Assembly (NCBI GenBank): GCA_016931085.1
Contig: JAFGFO010000313.1
Coordinates: 1 to 13,439 of the forward strand
DNA: 13,439 nucleotides
Direction: 5' to 3'
Source of the DNA: Thermoflexales bacterium
Lineage (GTDB): Bacteria > Chloroflexota > Anaerolineae > Fen-1058
The notes below the pieces were generated by a model that saw only the letters and a list, made by a program, of their open reading frames with translations, ran no database searches and was not told the DNA's origin. Shown one piece after another: positions 1 to 9,727 of the stretch. A program made the translations under genes and the position numbers. Numbering within the stretch: the stretch's first letter is position 1; each line of letters opens with the position of its first letter.

Positions 1-267
1 CACGCTGTCCATGAAGGAGGCCAGGTCGTTGCCCGGCGTGCCGTGGATGTGAATCTCGACCGGGCTGTGCAGGTCGGTGCCCAGGTAGCGCTGGCCGTAG
101 ACCTGGCGCAGCTCGATGCGCCTCGCGCCCGCCTCGACTGCCTCGCGCAGCCGCTGGTTCAGCTCGCGATAGTGCAGCCCACTCGCGTCGATAAGTAGGG
201 TTTCAGGTTCACCTGCACTGCGCGCAGGCGCAAGTGTCAGGTTTAAGGTTTCAGCTTCTGTTCCCAT
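1..267 (-). CDS. Glutamate synthase GXGXG-domain subunit (GltB domain 3), partial
   Basis: This is the 5' part of a gene that continues past the left edge; 89 codons are visible from ATG at 267. The translation includes LRQVYGQRYLGTDL, then EIHIHGTPGNDLASFMDSV, which matches the entry to the beta-helical GXGXG domain found at the C-terminus of glutamate synthase large subunits (I.I.G.PGNDL.AFMD). In split glutamate synthases of archaea and some bacteria this domain is a separate protein that scaffolds the glutaminase and FMN subunits. It follows the glutaminase subunit by 45 bases, so it is the last visible gene of the operon. The ATG is preceded on the minus strand by a purine-rich GATAGAGA stretch that can act as ribosome binding site. 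The family call is confident; the full length and C-terminus cannot be seen. Confidence 0.85.
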   Translation of the reverse strand, partial: MGTEAETLNLTLAPARSAGEPETLLIDASGLHYRELNQRLREAVEAGARRIELRQVYGQRYLGTDLHSPVEIHIHGTPGNDLASFMDSV

Positions 268-312: not shown

Positions 313-1551
313 CTAGTCGCCGATCTCCAATCCTCGCCCGCCGCTTTCGCTGCTCCACGCCTGGACGGCCGGTCTCTTGGTGCTGGCCTGGCTGTAGGCT
401 GGCAGTGCCATTTCCAGGTGTACCGCCGGCGGTGCGGCTTCTTTCTCGCTGGGGAGCGCCAGCCCCAGGCGCCCCACGATCGGCTCGCCGCCCACCGGCG
501 TCCAGACCCGTTCGAGCTGGGGGCTGATGAGCCGGATGGGCGCTTCTTCGGAGGAGAGGTAGAGCCGCTTGCCGGCGACAGCCGTCGTCAGCGGGCGCAG
601 GCGGATGCGGTCGGTGAGGCCGATCATCTCCCCGTGATGGGCGATGATGACGGTGAAGGGGCCGTTGATGAGTAGGGGGGAGTAGACCTGGCGCAAGGTG
701 CGGTAGGTGGATTGCTGGGCCGGCGGCAGCCGCCGGATGTCGGCCCACAGCGGGGGCGCCATGACGCGGGCGGCCAGCTCGACCGGCAACTGGTGCCGCC
801 GCATCAAAAAGTCGGCCGCGTAAGCAATCACTTCGGTGTCGGTCTGCATCGTGCATTTGTAACCCTGCATCTCCAGGTAGCGCAGGTTAGTGCCGTAGGA
901 CGAAATCTCCCCGTTGTGCACCACACTCCAATCCAGGAGGCCAAAGGGGTGCGCGCCCCCCCACCAGCCAGGCGTGTTGGTGGGAAAGCGGGTATGGGCC
1001 GTCCATAGATAGCCGCTGTAGCCCTCGATGTCGAAATATTCGGCGATCTGGCTGGGATGGCCGACGCCCTTGAATATCCCCAGGTTTTTCCCGCTGCTGT
1101 AGACGTAGGCGCCCAGGCCGGCGCCGTTGATCTTCATCACCTTGTCCACCAGGTAGTCGACCTCGCTCTGCAGGAGACTGTCGCGCTCGTTGACGTGCAA
1201 AAAGTAGCGCCAGATCAAGGGCGGGTCGAGCAGGCCGGGTGTGGGCCGGTGCGGCACTTCTTCGGCGTGAAGGAGGCTAAAGTGATCGTACAGAAAGGTC
1301 TCCGTCTGCGGCCGGCTCTCGCGCCGCGTGTACATCACGTGAAAGGCGTAGCAGTCGGCGTGATCGGGATAGCAGCCGTACACCGCAAAGCCTGCCCCCA
1401 GCCCGTTGCCGCGCTCTTCCATGTTCGTGATGCCGCGCGCGATGTCGTGGCCCGAAAAACACGCCCCGCTGACGTCCATGATGCCCAACAGCCCGCACGC
1501 GTCGTAAACCTTGTCGTCCCCATAAGGATTCTCGTAAGATATGCGCTTCAT
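313..1551 (-). CDS. Glutamate synthase glutaminase subunit (class II glutamine amidotransferase, GltB domain 1)
   Basis: This 412-residue protein is a class II (Ntn-hydrolase) glutamine amidotransferase that releases ammonia from glutamine for glutamate synthase. Cys19 in DACGLLGIMD is the likely catalytic nucleophile, exposed after removal of an 18-residue propeptide. Family motifs follow in order: HTRFPTN (186-192, substrate site), HNGE (212-215) and TDTE (237-240). The FMN and GXGXG domains of a normal large subunit are absent and are encoded by neighbouring genes, so this is the split form. The start at 1551 has AGGA 8 bases upstream, inside the end of a heptamer repeat. The last ~60 residues are low-complexity and less conserved in appearance. 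It is the fourth gene of a five-gene operon. A purine-biosynthesis PurF is unlikely, because there is no phosphoribosyltransferase domain. Confidence 0.88.
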   Translation of the reverse strand: MKRISYENPYGDDKVYDACGLLGIMDVSGACFSGHDIARGITNMEERGNGLGAGFAVYGCYPDHADCYAFHVMYTRRESRPQTETFLYDHFSLLHAEEVPHRPTPGLLDPPLIWRYFLHVNERDSLLQSEVDYLVDKVMKINGAGLGAYVYSSGKNLGIFKGVGHPSQIAEYFDIEGYSGYLWTAHTRFPTNTPGWWGGAHPFGLLDWSVVHNGEISSYGTNLRYLEMQGYKCTMQTDTEVIAYAADFLMRRHQLPVELAARVMAPPLWADIRRLPPAQQSTYRTLRQVYSPLLINGPFTVIIAHHGEMIGLTDRIRLRPLTTAVAGKRLYLSSEEAPIRLISPQLERVWTPVGGEPIVGRLGLALPSEKEAAPPAVHLEMALPAYSQASTKRPAVQAWSSESGGRGLEIGD

Positions 1552-1559
1552 CGTCGTTT

Positions 1560-1601
1560 CCTACTCCCTACTTCCTACTCCCTACTTCTTACTCCCTACT
1601 C
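1560..1601 (-). repeat. Six-copy purine-rich heptamer array between oxidoreductase and glutaminase genes
   Basis: On the minus strand the array is six 7-base units of the form (G/A)AGTA(G/A)G, exactly 42 bases. It begins within the upstream gene's TGA stop and ends 8 bases before the ATG of the glutaminase gene. The units resemble weak Shine-Dalgarno sequences, so the array may double as a translation-initiation region. A shorter version of the same unit lies at 3331-3357. Confidence 0.85.
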
Positions 1602-2886
1602 ACACCTCAATCCCATCCCCCACCACCAGGTGCTTGCGATAGTCCTTGGGGAGCGAGATCAGGCCAAAGTTGCCCGCCAGCAGCAGATCCTTGAAAGAAC
1701 TGACGTCTAGGCCGTCACGGATGAGGCCGGTGTAAATGCCGGCCCGGTTGATATCGCCCACGAAAATCGCTCCCACCAACTGCTTGCCGCGCAGGACAAG
1801 CTTTTTGTAGACGGGCGCCTGGCGATCGCACGTATCCATGACCTCGTACGCGCCATCGCCAGCCTGGGGGTCCGTCAGCCCGACCGAGATCGTGGGCACG
1901 CTGCAGATCTCGACCGAGTTCATCGGAAATCCCCCCTCGTATTCCTGGTAAACCCCGGCCATGTTGCAGCCGGCCACGCAGCCTTGCCGGTAAGCGTTCG
2001 GCCAGATGGCGATCGGGCGGCTGGCGCCCAGCAGCATGTCGTACGCCTCCACACAGTCGCCGGCGGCGTACACGTTGGGAACGTTGGTGCGCATGCAGGG
2101 GTTGACGACGATGCCGCGCCCCACCTGGATGCCGCTTTCCGGCGGGACCAGGCTGGTGTTGGGCCGCACGCCGATGGCAAGCACTACCACGCCGCAGTTG
2201 ACGCGCTCGCCGTCGCTCAGGATGGCGTGGTTGACCCGCCCGTCCTGCCCCACGATTTCTTGCACCGTCGCGCCGGTCCTGATCTCCACGCCGGCCCGGC
2301 GCAGGATGCCCTCGGCCAACTGGGAGGCCGTGCGGTCGAAGGTCGCGCTTAGGATGCGCTCGGCCAACTCCACGACGGTCACTGCGATAGAGCGCTTCAT
2401 CAACGCCTCGGTCGTCTTGAGGCCGATGAGGCCCCCGCCCAGGATCAGCGCCGACCGGACGTCGTGATCCTCGATGTAGCGCGCCAGCCGGCGGGCATCT
2501 TCCCAACGCGTGAATGTAAAGACCCCCTTTTGCTCCAGGCCCGGAATAGGCGGAACGAAAGGCCGGCCGCCAGTGGCGATCAGCAGGCGATCGTAAGCCA
2601 GCGCCTCTCCCCCCGCCAGCGAGATGGTCTGCTCCTGGGGATTGATGCGGGTGACCTCCACGCCCAGCCTCGTCTCTACTTTGTGACGCTCGTAGAAATC
2701 GGGCGGGCGATAGGGCATGTGGGCTTCGTCAACCAGACCGCCCAGCAGATAAGAAATGAGCGGCCGGGAGTAGACGTGATGGGCTTCATCAGACACGACC
2801 GTGATCGGGTTATCCGCATCGTGCTGGCGCACCGCCTCGATGGCGCCTACGGCTGCGGCTGAATTGCCAGCAATAACGTATCTCAT
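1600..2886 (-). CDS. FAD-dependent NAD(P)H oxidoreductase of the glutamate synthase operon
   Basis: This 428-residue pyridine nucleotide-disulfide-type flavoprotein would take electrons from NAD(P)H and pass them to the Fe-S proteins encoded next to it. The N-terminal FAD-binding fold starts with VIAGNSAAAVGA, a variant of GxGxxG. A second Rossmann fold has LILGGGLIGL at about 148-156, and Glu173 at the end of its second strand suggests NADH preference. The FAD-closing motif NVYAAGDC follows. There is no redox-active CxxC of the disulfide reductases, so it resembles NADH:rubredoxin-reductase or NirB N-terminal enzymes. Its ATG overlaps the ferredoxin stop by one base (TGATG), implying translational coupling. 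In this operon it takes the place of the usual GltD small subunit, though it is a different subfamily. The electron partner is inferred from context. Confidence 0.85.
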   Translation of the reverse strand: MRYVIAGNSAAAVGAIEAVRQHDADNPITVVSDEAHHVYSRPLISYLLGGLVDEAHMPYRPPDFYERHKVETRLGVEVTRINPQEQTISLAGGEALAYDRLLIATGGRPFVPPIPGLEQKGVFTFTRWEDARRLARYIEDHDVRSALILGGGLIGLKTTEALMKRSIAVTVVELAERILSATFDRTASQLAEGILRRAGVEIRTGATVQEIVGQDGRVNHAILSDGERVNCGVVVLAIGVRPNTSLVPPESGIQVGRGIVVNPCMRTNVPNVYAAGDCVEAYDMLLGASRPIAIWPNAYRQGCVAGCNMAGVYQEYEGGFPMNSVEICSVPTISVGLTDPQAGDGAYEVMDTCDRQAPVYKKLVLRGKQLVGAIFVGDINRAGIYTGLIRDGLDVSSFKDLLLAGNFGLISLPKDYRKHLVVGDGIEV

Positions 2887-3326
2887 CAGAATTCCTCCTC
2901 GTAGACCAGCGCCTCGTTAGGGCAGTGGGCCACGCAGGCCGGCGTTTGCTCCCCGTAGCACAGATCGCACTTGGAGGCCGCCTTGCGCTGGGTGACGCTG
3001 CGCTGGATGGCGCCGAAAGGACAGACCATAATGCACATCCAGCAGCCCACGCACTTGTCCTCGTCGCACAACACGGCCCCCCTTTCGTCACGGTGCATCG
3101 CCCCGGTCAGGCAGGCCTCCAGGCAGCGCGCGTCTGTGCAGTGGCGGCACTGCATGGCAAACGAAAGTGGGCCTTCCTCCTCCACCACCAGCCGCGGCAG
3201 CAGCCCAGCCGCTTCTTCCTTGAAGGCCTTGATGATCTTTTTGGACTGCGAGTGCTGCACCAGGCAGTGAATCTCGCACAAGCGGCAGCCGATGCAGTAC
3301 TCCTCGTTGACGTAAATTCGTTTCAC
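2886..3326 (-). CDS. Polyferredoxin-type 4Fe-4S protein (four clusters)
   Basis: This 146-residue protein resembles HycB/CooF-type electron-transfer subunits. Cysteines form four cluster motifs: C11/14/17/21, C60/63/68/72, C92/95/98/102 and C120/123/131/135, with one extra Cys at 87. That layout predicts four [4Fe-4S] clusters forming a wire. It sits between the FAD oxidoreductase (one-base stop/start overlap) and the FMN synthase subunit (31-base gap), so it probably carries electrons from FAD to the synthase's own ferredoxin domain. The start codon is GTG at 3326, with GGGAG 8 bases upstream inside a short purine repeat. No signal peptide or membrane segment is visible, so it should be cytoplasmic. 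The exact partners are inferred from gene order. Confidence 0.88.
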   Translation of the reverse strand: MKRIYVNEEYCIGCRLCEIHCLVQHSQSKKIIKAFKEEAAGLLPRLVVEEEGPLSFAMQCRHCTDARCLEACLTGAMHRDERGAVLCDEDKCVGCWMCIMVCPFGAIQRSVTQRKAASKCDLCYGEQTPACVAHCPNEALVYEEEF

Positions 3327-3357: not shown

Positions 3358-4872
3358 TCACTCCCCGGCTGCCCTGACACCCAGCGTTCTCAGCTCCACC
3401 TCGTTGAGACCTACTCCGCGCAGGTGATCGCGATTGCCACGCAAGCTCTCGATCGCGTTGACGCCCAGCCCGCCCAGCATCTCTTTGATCTCCATTGACC
3501 AGGCTCGCACCAGGTTGGCCAACTGGCGGCTGCCGATGTTGGGGTTCAAGCGCTTGGTGAGGTAGGGGTCCTGCGTGGCGATGCCCCAGTTGCACTTGCC
3601 GGTATAGCATTTTTGACACAGGTGGCAGCCCATGGCCACCAGGGCCGCCGTACCGATGTAGACCGCGTCCGCCCCCAAGGCGATCGCCTTGACCACATCG
3701 GCGCTGCTGCGGATAGAGCCGGCCGCCAGCACCGATACCTGGTTGCGGATGCCCTCCGCCCGCAGGCGGGTGTCCACGGCGGCAATGGCCAGCTCAATAG
3801 GGATGCCCACGTTGTTGCGGATGGTGGTGGGGGCCGCCCCGGTGCCGCCGCGCAGGCCGTCGATGGCGATGTAATCCGCCCCGGCCCGGGCGATGCCACT
3901 GGCGATGGGCGCCACGTTGTGCACGGCGGCGATCTTGACCCCCACCGGCTTGTCATAGTGGGTGGCTTCCTTGAGCGCATAGATCAATTGCCGCAAGTCC
4001 TCGATGGAATAAATGTCGTGGTGTGGCGCTGGCGAGAGCGCGTCCGTCCCCTCCGGGATCATGCGGGTCGCCGAAATCTCGGCTGAGACCTTTTCGCCCG
4101 GCAGATGCCCCCCGATGCCCGGCTTGGCGCCTTGCCCGATCTTGATCTCGAGCGCCGCCGCCGCCCCCAGGTAGCGGGGATGGACGCCAAAACGGCCCGA
4201 GGCGACCTGGGCGATGGTGTAAGGCCCGTATTCGTACAGGCTGGCGTGCAGCCCGCCCTCGCCAGTGTTGTACAGGATGCCGCTGGCCTTGGCGGCTCGC
4301 GCCAGCGACAGGCAGGCGTTGTAACTGATCGAGCCGTAGGACATGGCCGAAAACAGGATGGGCGTCTCCAGCACGAGCTGGGGGGCCAGTTGGGTCTTGA
4401 GCTGTATCCCCTCCGCCGTTCGCTCGAACTCGACACGCTCGGGCTTGCGCCCCAGGTAGGTGTGCAGCTCCATCGGCTCGCGCAGCGGGTCGATCGAGGG
4501 GTTGGTCACCTGCGAGGCGTTCAGCAGCAAATGATCGAAGTAAATCGGATACGGCTGGTCGCAGCCCATCGCCGTCAACAGCACGCCGCCGCTGGCAGCT
4601 TGCTTGTAAATGCTGCTGATGACGGACGACGTCCAGTTGGCGTTGGGCCGAAAGTCGGGCGGGTGGTGGCGGACGGTCAACGCGTGGGTGGGACACATCG
4701 TCACGCAGCGCTGGCAGCCCACGCAACGCCCATAGTCGCTGTAGACCCAATCGTACTCCGGGTCAAAGTTGTGGACGTCGTTGGCGCACTGGCGCACGCA
4801 CACCTGGCAGGCGATGCAGCGCGCCTCGTCGCGCTCTATCGTGAACTCGGGCGCAAGCAGGTTGAGACTCAT
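3358..4872 (-). CDS. Glutamate synthase FMN/Fe-S subunit with fused ferredoxin domain (GltB domain 2)
   Basis: This is the catalytic synthase subunit, which reductively transfers glutamine-derived ammonia to 2-oxoglutarate on FMN. The 504 residues begin with a two-cluster ferredoxin domain (C19/22/25/29 and C50/53/56/60). A TIM-barrel glutamate synthase domain follows, with IKIGQGAKPGIGGHLPG, DALSPAPHHDIYSIEDL, GLRGGTGAAPTTIRNN and VLAAGSIRSSADVVKA. A Cys cluster near 416-427 (CHLCQKCYTGKC) precedes GIATQ and should bind the family's [3Fe-4S] centre. A TTG at 4878 is in frame, but ATG at 4872 has GAGAG at a better distance, so I chose ATG. It heads the operon behind a consensus promoter and a repeated operator-like element. 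Archaeal and Thermotoga-type glutamate synthases share this architecture. Confidence 0.92.
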   Translation of the reverse strand: MSLNLLAPEFTIERDEARCIACQVCVRQCANDVHNFDPEYDWVYSDYGRCVGCQRCVTMCPTHALTVRHHPPDFRPNANWTSSVISSIYKQAASGGVLLTAMGCDQPYPIYFDHLLLNASQVTNPSIDPLREPMELHTYLGRKPERVEFERTAEGIQLKTQLAPQLVLETPILFSAMSYGSISYNACLSLARAAKASGILYNTGEGGLHASLYEYGPYTIAQVASGRFGVHPRYLGAAAALEIKIGQGAKPGIGGHLPGEKVSAEISATRMIPEGTDALSPAPHHDIYSIEDLRQLIYALKEATHYDKPVGVKIAAVHNVAPIASGIARAGADYIAIDGLRGGTGAAPTTIRNNVGIPIELAIAAVDTRLRAEGIRNQVSVLAAGSIRSSADVVKAIALGADAVYIGTAALVAMGCHLCQKCYTGKCNWGIATQDPYLTKRLNPNIGSRQLANLVRAWSMEIKEMLGGLGVNAIESLRGNRDHLRGVGLNEVELRTLGVRAAGE

Positions 4873-4890
4873 AGCCAAACTCTCTGTAAA

Positions 4891-4914
4891 GATATAATAG
4901 ATACAATAGATACG
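4891..4914 (-). promoter_or_regulatory. Direct-repeat operator candidate in glutamate synthase leader
   Basis: The minus strand shows two 9-base repeats, GTATCTATT-GTATCTATT, followed by a partial third (ATATCTTT). The 16-base core, ATAGATACAATAGATA on the plus strand at 4897-4912, recurs exactly at 9656-9671 before the GntR gene. It lies about 15-40 bases downstream of the predicted transcription start, a roadblock position for a repressor. That the GntR protein at 8946-9635 binds it is an inference. Confidence 0.6.
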
Positions 4915-4935
4915 AACTTTATAAAGATTGCGTGG

Positions 4936-4964
4936 ATTATACTATACAGTCCGCATTTTGTCAA
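4936..4964 (-). promoter_or_regulatory. Consensus sigma-70 promoter of the glutamate synthase operon
   Basis: On the minus strand TTGACA (4964-4959), a 17-base spacer and TATAAT (4941-4936) match the consensus at every position. The predicted transcription start is near 4929, giving a leader of about 57 bases. A promoter this strong suggests that control is by repression, which fits the repeated element just downstream. Confidence 0.85.
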
Positions 4965-4970
4965 GCCTGA

Positions 4971-4998
4971 TTGCAGATTTGCTGATTTGATGTATGAT
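4971..4998 (+). promoter_or_regulatory. Probable promoter of the KaiC-like/ATP-grasp fusion gene
   Basis: TTGCAG (4971-4976), a 16-base spacer and TATGAT (4993-4998) form a plausible sigma-70 promoter on the plus strand. It overlaps no part of the minus-strand promoter core, but shares the same 144-bp divergent region. The predicted start near 5005 would leave a very short leader before ATG 5011 or 5017. Confidence 0.5.
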
Positions 4999-5016
4999 TG
5001 ACGTGGGGTAATGCTT

Positions 5017-7623
5017 ATGGACACACTGACGATTCGCAGCGGGTTGGAGGCCCTGGACGAGGTCGTGCAAGGCATCCGGCTGGGGGATAACGTCGTCTGG
5101 CAGGTTGACCAACTGGAAGACTATGGCCGCTTTGTGCGCCCCTTTGTCGAGCAGGCGGTGGCCGAGCGGCGGCGCTTGGTGTACGTGCGTTTCGCTCCTC
5201 ACCCGCCTGTCCTAGAGGCTCGAAATGGGCTGGATTGGGTCGAGTTGGATCCACGGCCGGGTTTCGACTATTTTACGCGCCAGGTTCATCAGACGATTGA
5301 AAGGTATGGGCGGGAGACCTTTTACGTATTTGACAACCTGTCGGCCCTGGCCGTGGAATGGGCCACCGATGAGCTGCTGGCCAACTTTTTCCAGGTGACC
5401 TGCCCCTTCTTGTTCGAGCTGGATACTGTGGCCTATTTTGCTCTCATCCGGGGCCGTCACGCCCACGCGGCCGTGGCGCGCATCCGGGATACGACGCAGA
5501 TTCTCCTCGACGTCTACCGCGTCAAGGACCAGCTTTACATCCATCCGATCAAGGTCTGGGACCGCTACTCGCCGCAGATGTTCTTGCCTCACCTGGCCTC
5601 TGGCGCTCGTTGGGAGCCGCTGTCCGGCAGCCACCAGGCAGCCGAGGTGCTGGCCTCGGCCCGCCAGTCACCCTTGCGCGGCACACGGCGCTCGATCGCC
5701 CCGTGGGAAAGCGTCTATCAAAAGCTTGTCGATTACTCCAGCTTTGACGAAACGGATCCCGAGCAGGCCGCTTTGAAGCAAGAGCTGTGCCGCATGCTGA
5801 TCGGCTACCACCCCTTTTTCAGCCGGCTCTTGGACCACTATATCAGCCTGGATGATTTGCTGGCGATTCGCGAACGCATGGTTGGCTCCGGCCGGATTGG
5901 CGGCAAGGCGGCCGGTATGCTGCTGGCGCGGCGGATTTTGCAGGCGGACGGGGAGGGGGCAGGCCTGGCAGAACGTCTGGAGGATCACGACTCGTTCTAC
6001 ATCGGCTCGGACGTGTTTTTCACCTTCCTGGTCGATAACGACCTTTTCCGCTTGCGCCTGCAGTTGACCCGCAATTCGTTCACCTCTCCCGAGGAATACG
6101 AGGAGGTCGAGCGGCGCTTCCTGGCCGGAGGTTTCGCGCCCGCCGTCGTCGAGCAATTCCGCGCCTTGCTGGATTACTATGGGCAGTCGCCCATCATCGT
6201 GCGCTCCAGCAGCTTGCTGGAGGACAGCCTGGGCAATGCCTTTGCCGGGAAATACCGCAGCGTGTTTTGCGCCAACCAGGGTGACCCTGATAAGCGCCTG
6301 GAAGGCTTTATGCAGGCCGTCAAACTGGTGTATGCCAGCGCTCTGAACCCCGATGCCTTGTCTTATCGCAGCAAGCGGGGACTGGGTGAGAACGATGAGC
6401 AAATGGCCATCTTGGTGCAGCGTGTGTCCGGCATGCCCTACCGGCACTATTTTTTCCCGACTTTGGCGGGGGTCGCTTTTTCGCGCAATCTCTTTGCCTG
6501 GAATGAGCGGATCGACCCAGAGCAGGGCATCATCCGCCTGGTGTTTGGCTTGGGCACCCGCGCCGTCGACCGCGTCGGTTCGGACTATCCCCGCATGGTC
6601 GCCATCAGCCATCCCCAACTGCGTCCAGAAGTGGGGCCGAGGATCGCCAAGTACTCTCAGCGCCAGGTGGACGTGTTGGACCTGGTCGCCAACCGCTTTG
6701 AGAGTCGCGCCCTGGCCGAAGTGCTGGACGGCCGCGATTACCCCAATCTTTACATGCTCGTTTCGGTCATGAAAGATGGCTATCCCTACGATCCCATTTC
6801 CGCTCGTGTCGAGGGTGACGCCAGGAGCTGGGTGCTCACTTTTAACAACGTGCTGGGCCGCACGGATTTTGTGTCGCTCGTGGGGAAAATCCTGGCCAGG
6901 CTAGAAAAGGCCTACGGACACCCGGTAGACATCGAGTTTACTGCCTCGGTGGATGACGGAGAGCACATCCGGCTCAACTTGCTCCAGTGCCGGCCCTTGT
7001 TTTTGCCTGGCACGGCGGCGGCGGCGCAAATTCCAGCCGATTTACAGTCTCGCCAGGTGCTGTTTCGCGCCCAACGCATGGTTTGCGGTGGCGCTGTCGA
7101 GCACATCCGCTATATTCTCTACATCGCCCCCAAGGCTTATGACGCGCTCGAGCTCCAGTTGAAACATGGCCTGGGACGCTTGGTGGGCCAGATCAACCGG
7201 CACCCGGTGGTGCAGGCGGGCAAGATCGTGATGATGGGGCCGGGCCGCTGGGGCAGCAGCAACATCAAGTTGGGCGTCAACGTGGGCTATGCCGATATCG
7301 ACAATGCTTGCGTCTTGGTGGAGATCGCGCTGGAAGAGGCCGGCCACGTGCCTGAAGTATCGTACGGCACCCACTTTTTCCAGGACTTGGTCGAGGCTCA
7401 GATCATTTACATGCCGCTGTATCCCGACGACGCCGCGGCCCAGTTCCAGGTCGGGTTCTTTGAAAACGCGCCCAACGCTTTATTGGAGCTGTTCCCGCAG
7501 GCCGGGGCGTACGAGTCGCCGGTGCGCTTGATCGACGTACCGGCCGCGGCTGGCGGCGCTTTTGCCCAGGTGGCAGCCGACCCGCAGCAGCGCAGCGCCG
7601 TGTGCTTCCTGAGCCAGCCTTAG
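5017..7623 (+). CDS. Degenerate KaiC-like domain fused to PEP/pyruvate-binding ATP-grasp protein
   Basis: The protein has 868 residues from ATG 5017, chosen because GTGGGG lies 8 bases upstream; ATG 5011 (two residues longer) is possible, and residue numbers here count from 5011. Residues ~6-195 follow the KaiC/RecA pattern (SGLEALDEVVQGIRLGD, then a Walker-B-like FYVFDNLSA at 104-112). The Walker A position reads VWQVDQLEDYGRF with no GK(T/S), so ATP hydrolysis there is unlikely. Residues ~290-663 are a PPDK/PEP-synthase N-terminal ATP-grasp domain: GRIGGKAAGM (294-303), IIVRSSSLLEDS and NAFAGKYRS (395-417), and QCRPL at the end. A conserved-looking C-terminal module follows (MMGPGRWGSSN at 741-751). 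The phosphohistidine swivel domain and PEP-binding barrel are missing, so it is not a complete PEP synthase; the substrate is unknown. It diverges from the glutamate synthase operon. Confidence 0.8.
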   Translation: MDTLTIRSGLEALDEVVQGIRLGDNVVWQVDQLEDYGRFVRPFVEQAVAERRRLVYVRFAPHPPVLEARNGLDWVELDPRPGFDYFTRQVHQTIERYGRETFYVFDNLSALAVEWATDELLANFFQVTCPFLFELDTVAYFALIRGRHAHAAVARIRDTTQILLDVYRVKDQLYIHPIKVWDRYSPQMFLPHLASGARWEPLSGSHQAAEVLASARQSPLRGTRRSIAPWESVYQKLVDYSSFDETDPEQAALKQELCRMLIGYHPFFSRLLDHYISLDDLLAIRERMVGSGRIGGKAAGMLLARRILQADGEGAGLAERLEDHDSFYIGSDVFFTFLVDNDLFRLRLQLTRNSFTSPEEYEEVERRFLAGGFAPAVVEQFRALLDYYGQSPIIVRSSSLLEDSLGNAFAGKYRSVFCANQGDPDKRLEGFMQAVKLVYASALNPDALSYRSKRGLGENDEQMAILVQRVSGMPYRHYFFPTLAGVAFSRNLFAWNERIDPEQGIIRLVFGLGTRAVDRVGSDYPRMVAISHPQLRPEVGPRIAKYSQRQVDVLDLVANRFESRALAEVLDGRDYPNLYMLVSVMKDGYPYDPISARVEGDARSWVLTFNNVLGRTDFVSLVGKILARLEKAYGHPVDIEFTASVDDGEHIRLNLLQCRPLFLPGTAAAAQIPADLQSRQVLFRAQRMVCGGAVEHIRYILYIAPKAYDALELQLKHGLGRLVGQINRHPVVQAGKIVMMGPGRWGSSNIKLGVNVGYADIDNACVLVEIALEEAGHVPEVSYGTHFFQDLVEAQIIYMPLYPDDAAAQFQVGFFENAPNALLELFPQAGAYESPVRLIDVPAAAGGAFAQVAADPQQRSAVCFLSQP

Positions 7624-7646
7624 GGGCGACCCATTGGGTCGCCCCT
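7622..7646. terminator. Bidirectional hairpin between convergent genes
   Basis: A perfect 11-bp stem (AGGGGCGACCC with GGGTCGCCCCT) and a three-base ATT loop sit between the fusion gene's TAG and the glutamate dehydrogenase stop at 7661. There is no T-run on either side, but position and stability argue for a shared terminator or a transcript-end barrier. Confidence 0.7.
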
Positions 7647-7660
7647 GAGCATCGTCCCGC

Positions 7661-8917
7661 TTAGGCCCAGCCGCGCAAGTGGACTGCCTCGGCCACTCGG
7701 CTGACAGCCACCAGGTAGGCGCCTGTGCGGTTGTGCACCTTTTGCTCCTGGGCGGCCTTGTGCACGGCGTGGAAGGCGGTCGTCATCTTCTTGTCCAGCC
7801 GCTCGTGCACCAACTCTTCTTCCCAGTAATAATCGTAGGCGTTCTGGACCATCTCGAAGTAAGATACAGTCACCCCACCGGCGTTGCACAAAAAGTCTGG
7901 AATCACATAGACGCCGTTCTTGTACATGATTTGATCGGCCTCGATTGTGGCAGGGCCGTTGGCCAGCTCGGCGACGATCTTGGCCTTGACGCGCCCGGCG
8001 TTCTCCTCCGTGATCACGTTCTCCAGGGCGGACGGGATCAGGACGGTCACGTCCAACTCGAGCAGATCTCCGTTGCTGACCGGCTCACTGCCCGGAAAAT
8101 TGGCCACCGAGCCGGTGGCTTGCTTGTGAGCCATCACCTGCTCGTAGTCCAATCCGTCTTTGTTATAAATGCCGCCCTTGGAATCGGAAACGGCCACGAC
8201 TTTTAGCCCCAGCAGCTCCGCGCCCAGCTTGTGCGCAAAGGCGCCGGCGTTGCCGTAACCCTGGATGGCGGCCGTCTCGCCCTGCAGATCGATGCCCAGC
8301 ACCTTGCCCGCCTCGCGTATGCAGCACAGGCCGCCGCGAGCGGTCGCGTCGCCGCGGCCGGCCGAGCCGCCCAGCGCCAACGGCTTGCCCGTGATGACGC
8401 CGAATTCGTTGTAGCCGTGCAAGGCCGCGTACTCGTCGGCCATCCAGGCCATGATCTGCGGCGTGGTGTACACGTCGGGCGCCGGCACGTCTTTCTCCAG
8501 GCCGATCAGTCGCCCGATCTGGCGGATGTAGGCCCGGCTCAGGCGTTCCAGCTCGCCCGGCGACAGTTCCTTGGGATTGCAGATGATGCCGCCCTTGGCC
8601 CCACCCAGCGGGATGTCGACCACGGCCGTCTTCCACGTCATCCAGGCCGCCAGGGCGCGCACGGTGTCGATCGTCTCCTCGGGGTGGTAGCGGATGCCGC
8701 CCTTGGTCGCCCCGCGCGCGTCGTTGTATTGCACCCGAAAGCCGTGGAAAATCTTGGTCGAGCCGTCGTCCATCTTGACCGGCAGCGTCACGTGCAGCTC
8801 GCGGATCGGCCAGCGCAGCAGCTCGTGCAGGGCCGGGTCGAGCTTGAGGATGGCCGCCGCCTCGTCGAGCTGGCGTTGGGCTGTTTCGAATGGATTGGGT
8901 TTTTGTTGTTGGTTCAC
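7661..8917 (-). CDS. Glutamate dehydrogenase (NAD(P)-dependent)
   Basis: This 418-residue enzyme interconverts glutamate with 2-oxoglutarate and ammonium. The length is typical of the hexameric ~420-residue class. TKGGIRYHP (71-79) and PLGGAKGGI (103-111, catalytic Lys108) form the glutamate site, Asp148 in PAPDVYT is the expected catalytic Asp, and the coenzyme fold has GYGNAGAFA (220-228). The strand ending VVAVSDS places an Asp (245) where NAD-linked enzymes often have an acid, but coenzyme choice cannot be settled by reading. The start is GTG at 8917, with GGAGAG 7 bases upstream. It lies 28 bases after the GntR regulator gene with no promoter visible between, so the two should be one transcript. 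Regulation is therefore probably through the GntR operator. Confidence 0.95.
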
Positions 8918-8945
8918 GTCTTATCTCTCCTTAATAATTTCTGAA

Positions 8946-9635
8946 TTAATCCTCGCTCTTTTGTAAACGACCTTCGAGCAAGGTAAAGTGATTGACCAGG
9001 ATGTCTTTGCCTCCTTCGTATCGCTGCGCCTTGATGGCGTCCGTTATCGCTTGATGCTTGGACCACATCTCTTTATAATAGCTGTAGTCAAAATAGAGAT
9101 TCAAGCCGACGGCTTCGTAAGCGTCCCAATAGGCTTCTAACAGCCCTTGCACGAACTCGTTTTGCAACTGGCTAAAGATGAGCAGATGGAAGCGCCGGTG
9201 TTCCGTGTGGGGGATCTCGGCCTGGGGGCCGGTGAGCTTGCGCTGAGCTTGGACCAGGACAGCGTCGAGCTCTTGGTATTCCTCCGGGCCGAGGTTACGC
9301 ACGGCTTCATCCCAGAACGCCACTTCCAACTGGACTCGCAGCCGGTAGAAGCGGTCAAAGTTCTTCCTGTCGAGCGCGATGCCGTACAACACCGCCGTGC
9401 GGATGGCGGCGTAAAAATCGTAGGGGAGGACGTACGTGCCATCCCCCGGCCGCATCTCCACCACGCCGTAGGCTTGCGCGACGACCAGCTCCTCGCGTAG
9501 CTTGCCCCGGCTGACCCGCATTTGCCTGGCCAAATCGTCCATAGGAGGCAGTTTCGTCAGATCCTCCCCGTTCACCGCCATGTCTTTGTCGACAATGTGT
9601 TGGAGGATGGTGTAGGGCAACGCATTTCTAAGCAT
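8946..9635 (-). CDS. GntR-family (FadR subfamily) transcriptional regulator, predicted glutamate-metabolism regulator
   Basis: This is a DNA-binding regulator of 229 residues from ATG 9635. An in-frame start at 9677 exists, but AGGAGG lies four bases upstream of 9635 and homology-like sequence begins there (MLRNALPYTILQHIV). Residues ~7-72 form the winged helix-turn-helix (DDLARQMRVSRGKLREEL, then RPGDGTYV). Residues ~85-222 are an all-helical FCD effector domain, with His150, His194 and His216 at positions where FCD proteins often bind a metal and a small carboxylate. Its own promoter carries the same 16-base element as the glutamate synthase promoter, and glutamate dehydrogenase follows in the same operon. 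I infer autoregulation plus control of both glutamate routes; the effector (possibly a dicarboxylate such as 2-oxoglutarate) is a guess. Confidence 0.88.
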   Translation of the reverse strand: MLRNALPYTILQHIVDKDMAVNGEDLTKLPPMDDLARQMRVSRGKLREELVVAQAYGVVEMRPGDGTYVLPYDFYAAIRTAVLYGIALDRKNFDRFYRLRVQLEVAFWDEAVRNLGPEEYQELDAVLVQAQRKLTGPQAEIPHTEHRRFHLLIFSQLQNEFVQGLLEAYWDAYEAVGLNLYFDYSYYKEMWSKHQAITDAIKAQRYEGGKDILVNHFTLLEGRLQKSED

Positions 9636-9654
9636 GTTACCTCCTAGATCGTTT

Positions 9655-9672
9655 GATAGATACAATAGATAT
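9655..9672 (-). promoter_or_regulatory. Direct-repeat operator candidate in GntR-gdh leader
   Basis: The minus strand reads ATATCTATT-GTATCTATC, two near-identical 9-base repeats. The core ATAGATACAATAGATA (plus strand, 9656-9671) is identical to 4897-4912. It lies about 20-40 bases downstream of the predicted start and about 10 bases before the Shine-Dalgarno. Related TAGATCG sequences flank it at 9645-9651 and 9682-9688. Confidence 0.6.
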
Positions 9673-9699
9673 AACAATTCATAGATCGTACAGCGCGGA

Positions 9700-9727
9700 A
9701 TTATAGCACTAATTCAAATTATGTCAA
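9700..9727 (-). promoter_or_regulatory. Consensus sigma-70 promoter of the GntR-glutamate dehydrogenase operon
   Basis: TTGACA (9727-9722), a 16-base spacer and TATAAT (9705-9700) on the minus strand match both consensus hexamers. The predicted start near 9693 gives a ~58-base leader, almost the same length as in the glutamate synthase operon. Confidence 0.85.

Follow-up and report, generated by a model that had tools for sequence, protein, structure and literature searches.

We find that a short operator-like site recurs at two promoters in a 13,439-nucleotide stretch of Thermoflexales DNA (the window, meaning the whole stretch analysed). We suggest, with a probability of about three in four, that the GntR-family protein encoded there is an autoregulated FadR-type repressor that would control both its own operon with glutamate dehydrogenase (gntR-gdh) and the glutamate synthase operon through this common operator. 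The kind of regulator is ordinary; glutamate synthase as its new target is a well-supported prediction, and the extension to gdh appears to be specific to the window.

The six genes concerned lie on the minus strand. The gntR gene (8946..9635) encodes a 229-aa FadR-type regulator with a GntR winged helix and an FCD domain, and gdh, encoding glutamate dehydrogenase (7661..8917), starts 28 bases past the gntR stop and is probably co-transcribed with it. The split glutamate synthase is encoded by gltB2 (3358..4872, the start being taken as the ATG at 4872), which specifies the FMN domain with an N-terminal 4Fe-4S domain, and by the genes for a ferredoxin-type 4Fe-4S subunit (2886..3326), a FAD/NAD(P) oxidoreductase subunit (1600..2886) and a class-II glutamine amidotransferase subunit (313..1551). 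Pfam domains (GntR and FCD, glutamate dehydrogenase, Glu_synthase FMN with 4Fe-4S, ferredoxin, pyridine-nucleotide oxidoreductase and class-II amidotransferase) confirm the gene identities on which the initial annotation built its pair of operons. An open frame at 267..1 resembles the start of a GXGXG subunit, below the cut-off (13.3 of 32.5 bits). A search with Rfam at gathering scores of the window and twelve loci gave no match.

It had been claimed that one 16-mer, as part of 9-bp repeats, lies about 20–40 bases past the predicted start of two consensus promoters, in leaders of about 57–58 bases, and our analysis bears this out. The 16-mer, ATAGATACAATAGATA, is present as two exact copies, at 4897-4912 and 9656-9671, and a further copy with 2 mismatches at 4888-4903 overlaps the one on the gltB2 side, so that three 9-bp units precede gltB2. 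With up to 3 mismatches allowed, chance would give 0.01 matches per window, and three matches were reached in 0 of 200 shuffles. The array before gltB2 (4888..4914, minus strand) reads GTATCTATT GTATCTATT ATATCTTTA on that strand, with a 15-bp core, ATCTATTGTATCTAT, at 4897-4911; the operator before gntR (9656..9673, minus strand) is of the ATATCTATTGTATCTATC type, with two 9-bp units and the 15-bp core at 9656-9670. Both stand just downstream of the only two perfect sigma-70-type promoters among 13 promoter-like matches in the window (12/12 agreement with TTGACA/TATAAT). The predicted promoter of the glutamate synthase operon (4936..4964, minus strand) is TTGACA-17-TATAAT and that of gntR-gdh (9700..9727, minus strand) is TTGACA-16-TATAAT with a TG preceding the -10 box, each identified by its consensus match only. 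With transcription starts estimated at 7 nt past the -10 box, at about 4929 and 9693, the leaders would be 57 nt (gltB2) and 58 nt (gntR) long, and the 15-bp site would lie at about +18 to +37. Self-match at a lag of 9 was equalled in none of 1000 shuffles of the gltB2 leader (P = 0.001 for any lag from 4 to 30); for the gntR leader it gave P = 0.005 and, for any lag from 4 to 30, P = 0.16, which is unremarkable alone. The strength of the window repeat lies in the recurrence of one site at two promoters. We rejected the possibility that the two promoter regions are recent copies of one another, as their likeness, judged by eye, is limited to the hexamers and the operator.

The same site is conserved in the closest relatives of the regulator. 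From the 120 homologues listed out of 711, 34 proteins entered a profile alignment, which matched 170 loci in named genomes; the best 80 were kept. The five closest of these gntR genes (L001–L005; genomes labelled Anaerolineae, Thermoflexales or Chloroflexota) encode proteins 54–60% identical to the window protein, and all five stand immediately before gltB2. In L001, L004 and L005 the ferredoxin, oxidoreductase and amidotransferase genes follow, and the contigs of L002 and L003 stop inside gltB2. A search of 396 genomes of the class, drawn evenly from a larger group, gave a GntR match at E ≤ 1e-50 in 73 of them, with the same five at 54–60% and the next best at 48%. Among viral contigs, 35 stretches fit a pattern and none of the 35 encodes a relative.

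A site of this kind is present in all five gntR leaders, where it overlaps or closely follows the -10 box and has the strand opposite to that of the window sites. When seven leaders (two from the window and five from relatives) were searched for a motif, a 15-bp site was placed in each, with the consensus ATCGATTGTATCTAT, in which letters three and four are weak, so that it may be written AT(C/A)(T/G)ATTGTATCTAT-like. Over 24 columns the motif held 14.17 nats per sequence, whereas 40 null draws averaged 8.25 and did not exceed 9.42; each draw had 20 starts and the real set 60, and the control leaders were at least 52% AT where the real set has 62%. When each leader was left out in turn, all seven outscored all 395 control leaders, L002 narrowly (14.8 vs 14.3). 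The lag-9 self-match was weak in two of the five relatives (L002, P = 0.076; L003, P = 0.325), in a test in which the start of L005 was placed 12 bases early. Across the 23.4 Mb of the five relative genomes, a degenerate form of the site has five matches, four of them at a gntR promoter; because the pattern was built from the same sites, and the own site of genome G002 falls outside it, only its rarity elsewhere is informative. The fifth match (G002, L150) was considered as a further target and is regarded as chance because it lies within a coding ORF. From these positions the regulon in the relatives looks like one operon. An 18-mer search gave five matches at up to 3 mismatches, two at gntR and three elsewhere (each with 3 mismatches), against four for the reversed control. 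The presence of the repeat at the orthologous promoters of relatives that keep the regulator was the check proposed for the initial annotation, and with the site in 5/5 gntR-gltB2 leaders the predicted autoregulation is well supported.

The site is also missing where the regulator is missing. A close gltB2 occurs in 23 of the 396 genomes, and 18 of these 23 lack a GntR match at E ≤ 1e-50; in none of the 18 did the region before gltB2 reach the 99th percentile of the controls (best 7.5 vs 9.3). Eight of them (L127 and L129–L135) are clean negatives, since in the other ten (L137–L146) gltB2 is intra-operonic, with another subunit gene before it. Upstream of the start region, six of the eight clean leaders (L129, L130 and L132–L135) show, by eye, an ATCCTCC...GGAGGAT-like element, possibly the operator of a different regulator. 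Strong hairpins lie just before the gltB2 start in L127, L128 and L136 (z -4.4, -5.7 and -3.0; 100 simple shuffles of the last 90 bases), with T-rich tails in L127 and L128, and could be attenuators or terminators; nine other leaders gave z from -2.6 to 0.9.

The protein itself has the domain order of the FadR subfamily, with PF00392 at 27.3 bits (cut-off 27) and PF07729 at 60 bits (cut-off 24.3). Its predicted structure (mean pLDDT 90.0) combines a winged helix with an all-helical C-terminal domain, the FadR-subfamily fold, and resembles CGL2915, NanR and DhdR; a structure search gave 58 PDB matches at E ≤ 0.001, and the 50 listed are mostly FadR/FCD-type GntR regulators. The scores against NCBI equivalog models stayed far below the cut-offs for NanR (NF003011, 24.9 of 260 bits), PdhR (24.2 of 330), LldR (39.6 of 311) and UxuR (33.8 of 442).

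The other 75 loci, with proteins 39–49% identical to that of the window, form a side of their own in the tree, with SH-aLRT 100; the tree was built from 76 of the 200 proteins collected and included 38 of the 75 sister loci. Here a korA gene lies within 1 kb downstream of gntR in 71/75 loci, five of these matches being only 25–27% identical in the reported piece, and korB in 69/75; of the four loci without korA, two end within 326 bases of gntR and one at once. A representative KorA exceeds the cut-off of the 2-oxoacid:acceptor oxidoreductase alpha model (521.1 of 482.75 bits), and the KorB scores below the nearest cut-off. The best solved-structure match of KorA is 6n2n, a 2-oxoglutarate enzyme, and 2-oxoglutarate is a putative substrate of the sister KorA. 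From gene order and leader sites, the sister proteins appear to regulate a further enzyme at the same metabolic junction, of the korAB type.

Sister leaders share the spacing of the window site. Their mean self-match is 8.14 at lag 9, 4.91 at lag 18 and 4.12 at lag 27, against 3.0–4.0 at other lags, and 61% of 74 sister leaders score at least 7 at lag 9 compared with 6% of 395 controls (79 of the 80 leaders were used, L051 being left out as its start codon is absent; AT content is 0.48 in controls vs 0.59–0.61 in regulator leaders). The sister motif, ATTNATCNGATTAAT, is palindromic, with a third half-site 9 bp further, and holds 11.06 nats per sequence, compared with 1.53 for 74 of the 395 control leaders. 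Its exact 16-base form is found in 20/396 genomes, in 15 of them at gntR-korA, and the reversed pattern in 0/396; in the remaining five no common gene was seen by eye at the sites. The two motifs are related and not exclusive, because 10/74 sister leaders exceed the controls' 99th percentile with the window-type matrix (best 14.6). Common to both regulator groups are AT-NN-AT half-sites every 9 bp; this hexamer-N3-hexamer layout is also that of PdhR-type operators. The repeats had been described as direct, and 9-bp tandem units are indeed seen, but half-sites on a 9-bp phase, as in the sister palindromes, are the better fit. In five sister loci (L027, L040, L047, L063 and L064) a near-identical stretch, ggttccagcaacggcgcaaacccc, stands immediately before the chosen start, and the true start may be upstream.

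The two groups of proteins are alike in domain order, in their 9-bp-phased leader sites and in the FCD histidines (H146, H150 and H194 invariant, H216 in at least 98%), and differ in the palindrome, in the downstream korA and in the recognition helix. The window protein has R43, E49 and Q54, and together with the five gltB2-linked relatives it keeps R or K at 43, E or D at 49 and Q at 54, whereas the korA group has mostly V43, always Q49 and mostly R54. Position 43 presumably corresponds to the base-contacting arginine of E. coli FadR.

Among characterised regulators, DhdR of Achromobacter denitrificans is the top match in a PDB sequence search (E 4.7e-9). According to the sections of PMC8651671 used here, it is likewise FadR-type, autoregulates its operon, binds GTTATCAGATAAC and senses D-2-hydroxyglutarate, a C5 diacid. 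The core of its operator, ATCNGAT, equals the core of the sister motif, which was built independently of the DhdR site; the window shows just the TATC half of this core, tandemly repeated. DhdR is, however, only 23–24% identical to the window GntR in structure alignments, and it controls D-2-hydroxyglutarate dehydrogenase from a single palindrome over the -35 region (PMC8651671, same sections). NanR of E. coli is alike in its FadR-type fold and in a tandem-repeat operator downstream of the polymerase site, but its GGTATA repeats control sialic acid genes (PMC8012715, in part), and the 9-bp units of the window have other letters than the GGTATA tandem. In general, FadR-subfamily operators are palindromes with TKGT/ACMA boxes, with direct-repeat exceptions such as NanR, according to the portion of PMC4494728 consulted, which counts six Chloroflexi FadR-type proteins; the GT-N3-AC core of that palindrome is absent from the window site ATCTATTGTATCTAT. 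GdhR of Neisseria resembles the window regulator in function, by description, being FadR-type, tied to glutamate dehydrogenase and bound past the transcription start (+6 to +48 at the gonococcal site). It differs in an inverted-repeat FadR-type site and, in meningococcus, in activation of gdhA, and a link to glutamate synthase is absent from the part of the description in PMC6957213 that we draw on. In the open-access literature we found no description of glutamate synthase or korAB being regulated by a GntR protein in Chloroflexota.

We propose that GntR dimers would sit on AT-rich half-sites 9 bp apart at the start of the two transcripts, hinder RNA polymerase and so hold down gntR-gdh and the glutamate synthase operon. 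As the TATC half repeats in one direction in the window, a dimer would there grip one good and one poor half, whereas sister half-sites face each other; NanR dimers hold one consensus and one poor half (PMC8012715, excerpt). In the relatives a single operator-bearing promoter would serve gntR and the gltB2 directly behind it. In the window, gntR is followed by gdh, and gltB2 stands behind a separate promoter that carries the same operator; the circuit would therefore include gdh. A signal from the 2-oxoglutarate node would probably release the repressor. That the effector is 2-oxoglutarate or a close C5 diacid is a guess to which we give slightly less than even odds. It is suggested by the position of both branches before enzymes that use, or probably use, 2-oxoglutarate, by the effector of DhdR and by the reported inhibition of meningococcal GdhR binding by 2-oxoglutarate; 2-oxoglutarate was without effect on gonococcal GdhR at lctP (PMC6957213, in part). 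Such a circuit may balance the two glutamate routes, as suggested in the initial annotation.

The proposal of one operator for two operons stands for glutamate synthase, with five relatives behind it, and not, beyond the window, for gdh. Copies of gdh were detected in four of the genomes with the regulator, and none of their nine gdh leaders has the site (best score 5.7). From the gltB2 and gdh leader controls, the glutamate synthase link therefore appears conserved and the gdh link peculiar to the window. It may thus be that the true targets are glutamate synthase and gntR itself, with gdh merely lying behind gntR and not a selected target, as the gntR-gltB2 order of the relatives would also suggest. 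We regard this as a real though lesser possibility; against it, gdh would share the gntR promoter at a distance of 28 bases, and its product connects the same metabolites.

The sign of regulation could also be different. In meningococcus, GdhR reportedly activates gdhA (PMC6957213, in part), and GntR might likewise activate, or work both ways depending on a metabolite. We find this unlikely, as the sites lie over or past the -10 box and perfect promoters need no help; with sites at the transcription start, repression is the natural reading. Least probable, and in our view improbable, is that the repeat is the site of some other regulator, or a feature of AT-rich leaders, and that gntR is nearby by coincidence. 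The leaders are indeed AT-rich and GntR binding is a prediction from sequence, but the site tracks gntR, being present in all five gntR leaders and absent before gltB2 where gntR is lacking, and a 9-bp-phased relative of it stands before the sister regulators.

More broadly, and tentatively, a lineage of FadR-type 2-oxoglutarate sensors may directly read the carbon/nitrogen balance in Anaerolineae-type Chloroflexota, one branch controlling korAB and the other glutamate synthase, here also gdh. If so, the korAB branch would guard the carbon exit and the glutamate synthase branch the nitrogen exit. As part of this tentative reading, the difference at position 43 (mostly V vs R) and in the half-site (ATTAAT vs ATC-T/G-AT) may be a paired protein–DNA change, which would offer a ready-made test of specificity. 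The 9-bp-phased half-sites suggest that one spacing may lie behind both palindromic and direct-repeat FadR-type operators. For these largely uncultured bacteria, two enzyme systems would be tied to one regulator family with readable operators, and the window would provide a concrete, testable regulator at the carbon–nitrogen junction.

Two further observations were made in the window. On the plus strand, divergent from gltB2 and about 100 bases from its operator, positions 5011-7623 encode an 870-aa protein with PPDK_N as its sole domain, a relative of which (41%) is encoded downstream of the same glutamate synthase operon in L004. The FCD domain of the window GntR has four conserved histidines, at residues 146, 150, 194 and 216; the first aligns, in a gapped stretch read by eye, with an aspartate of DhdR, which hints at an altered metal site.
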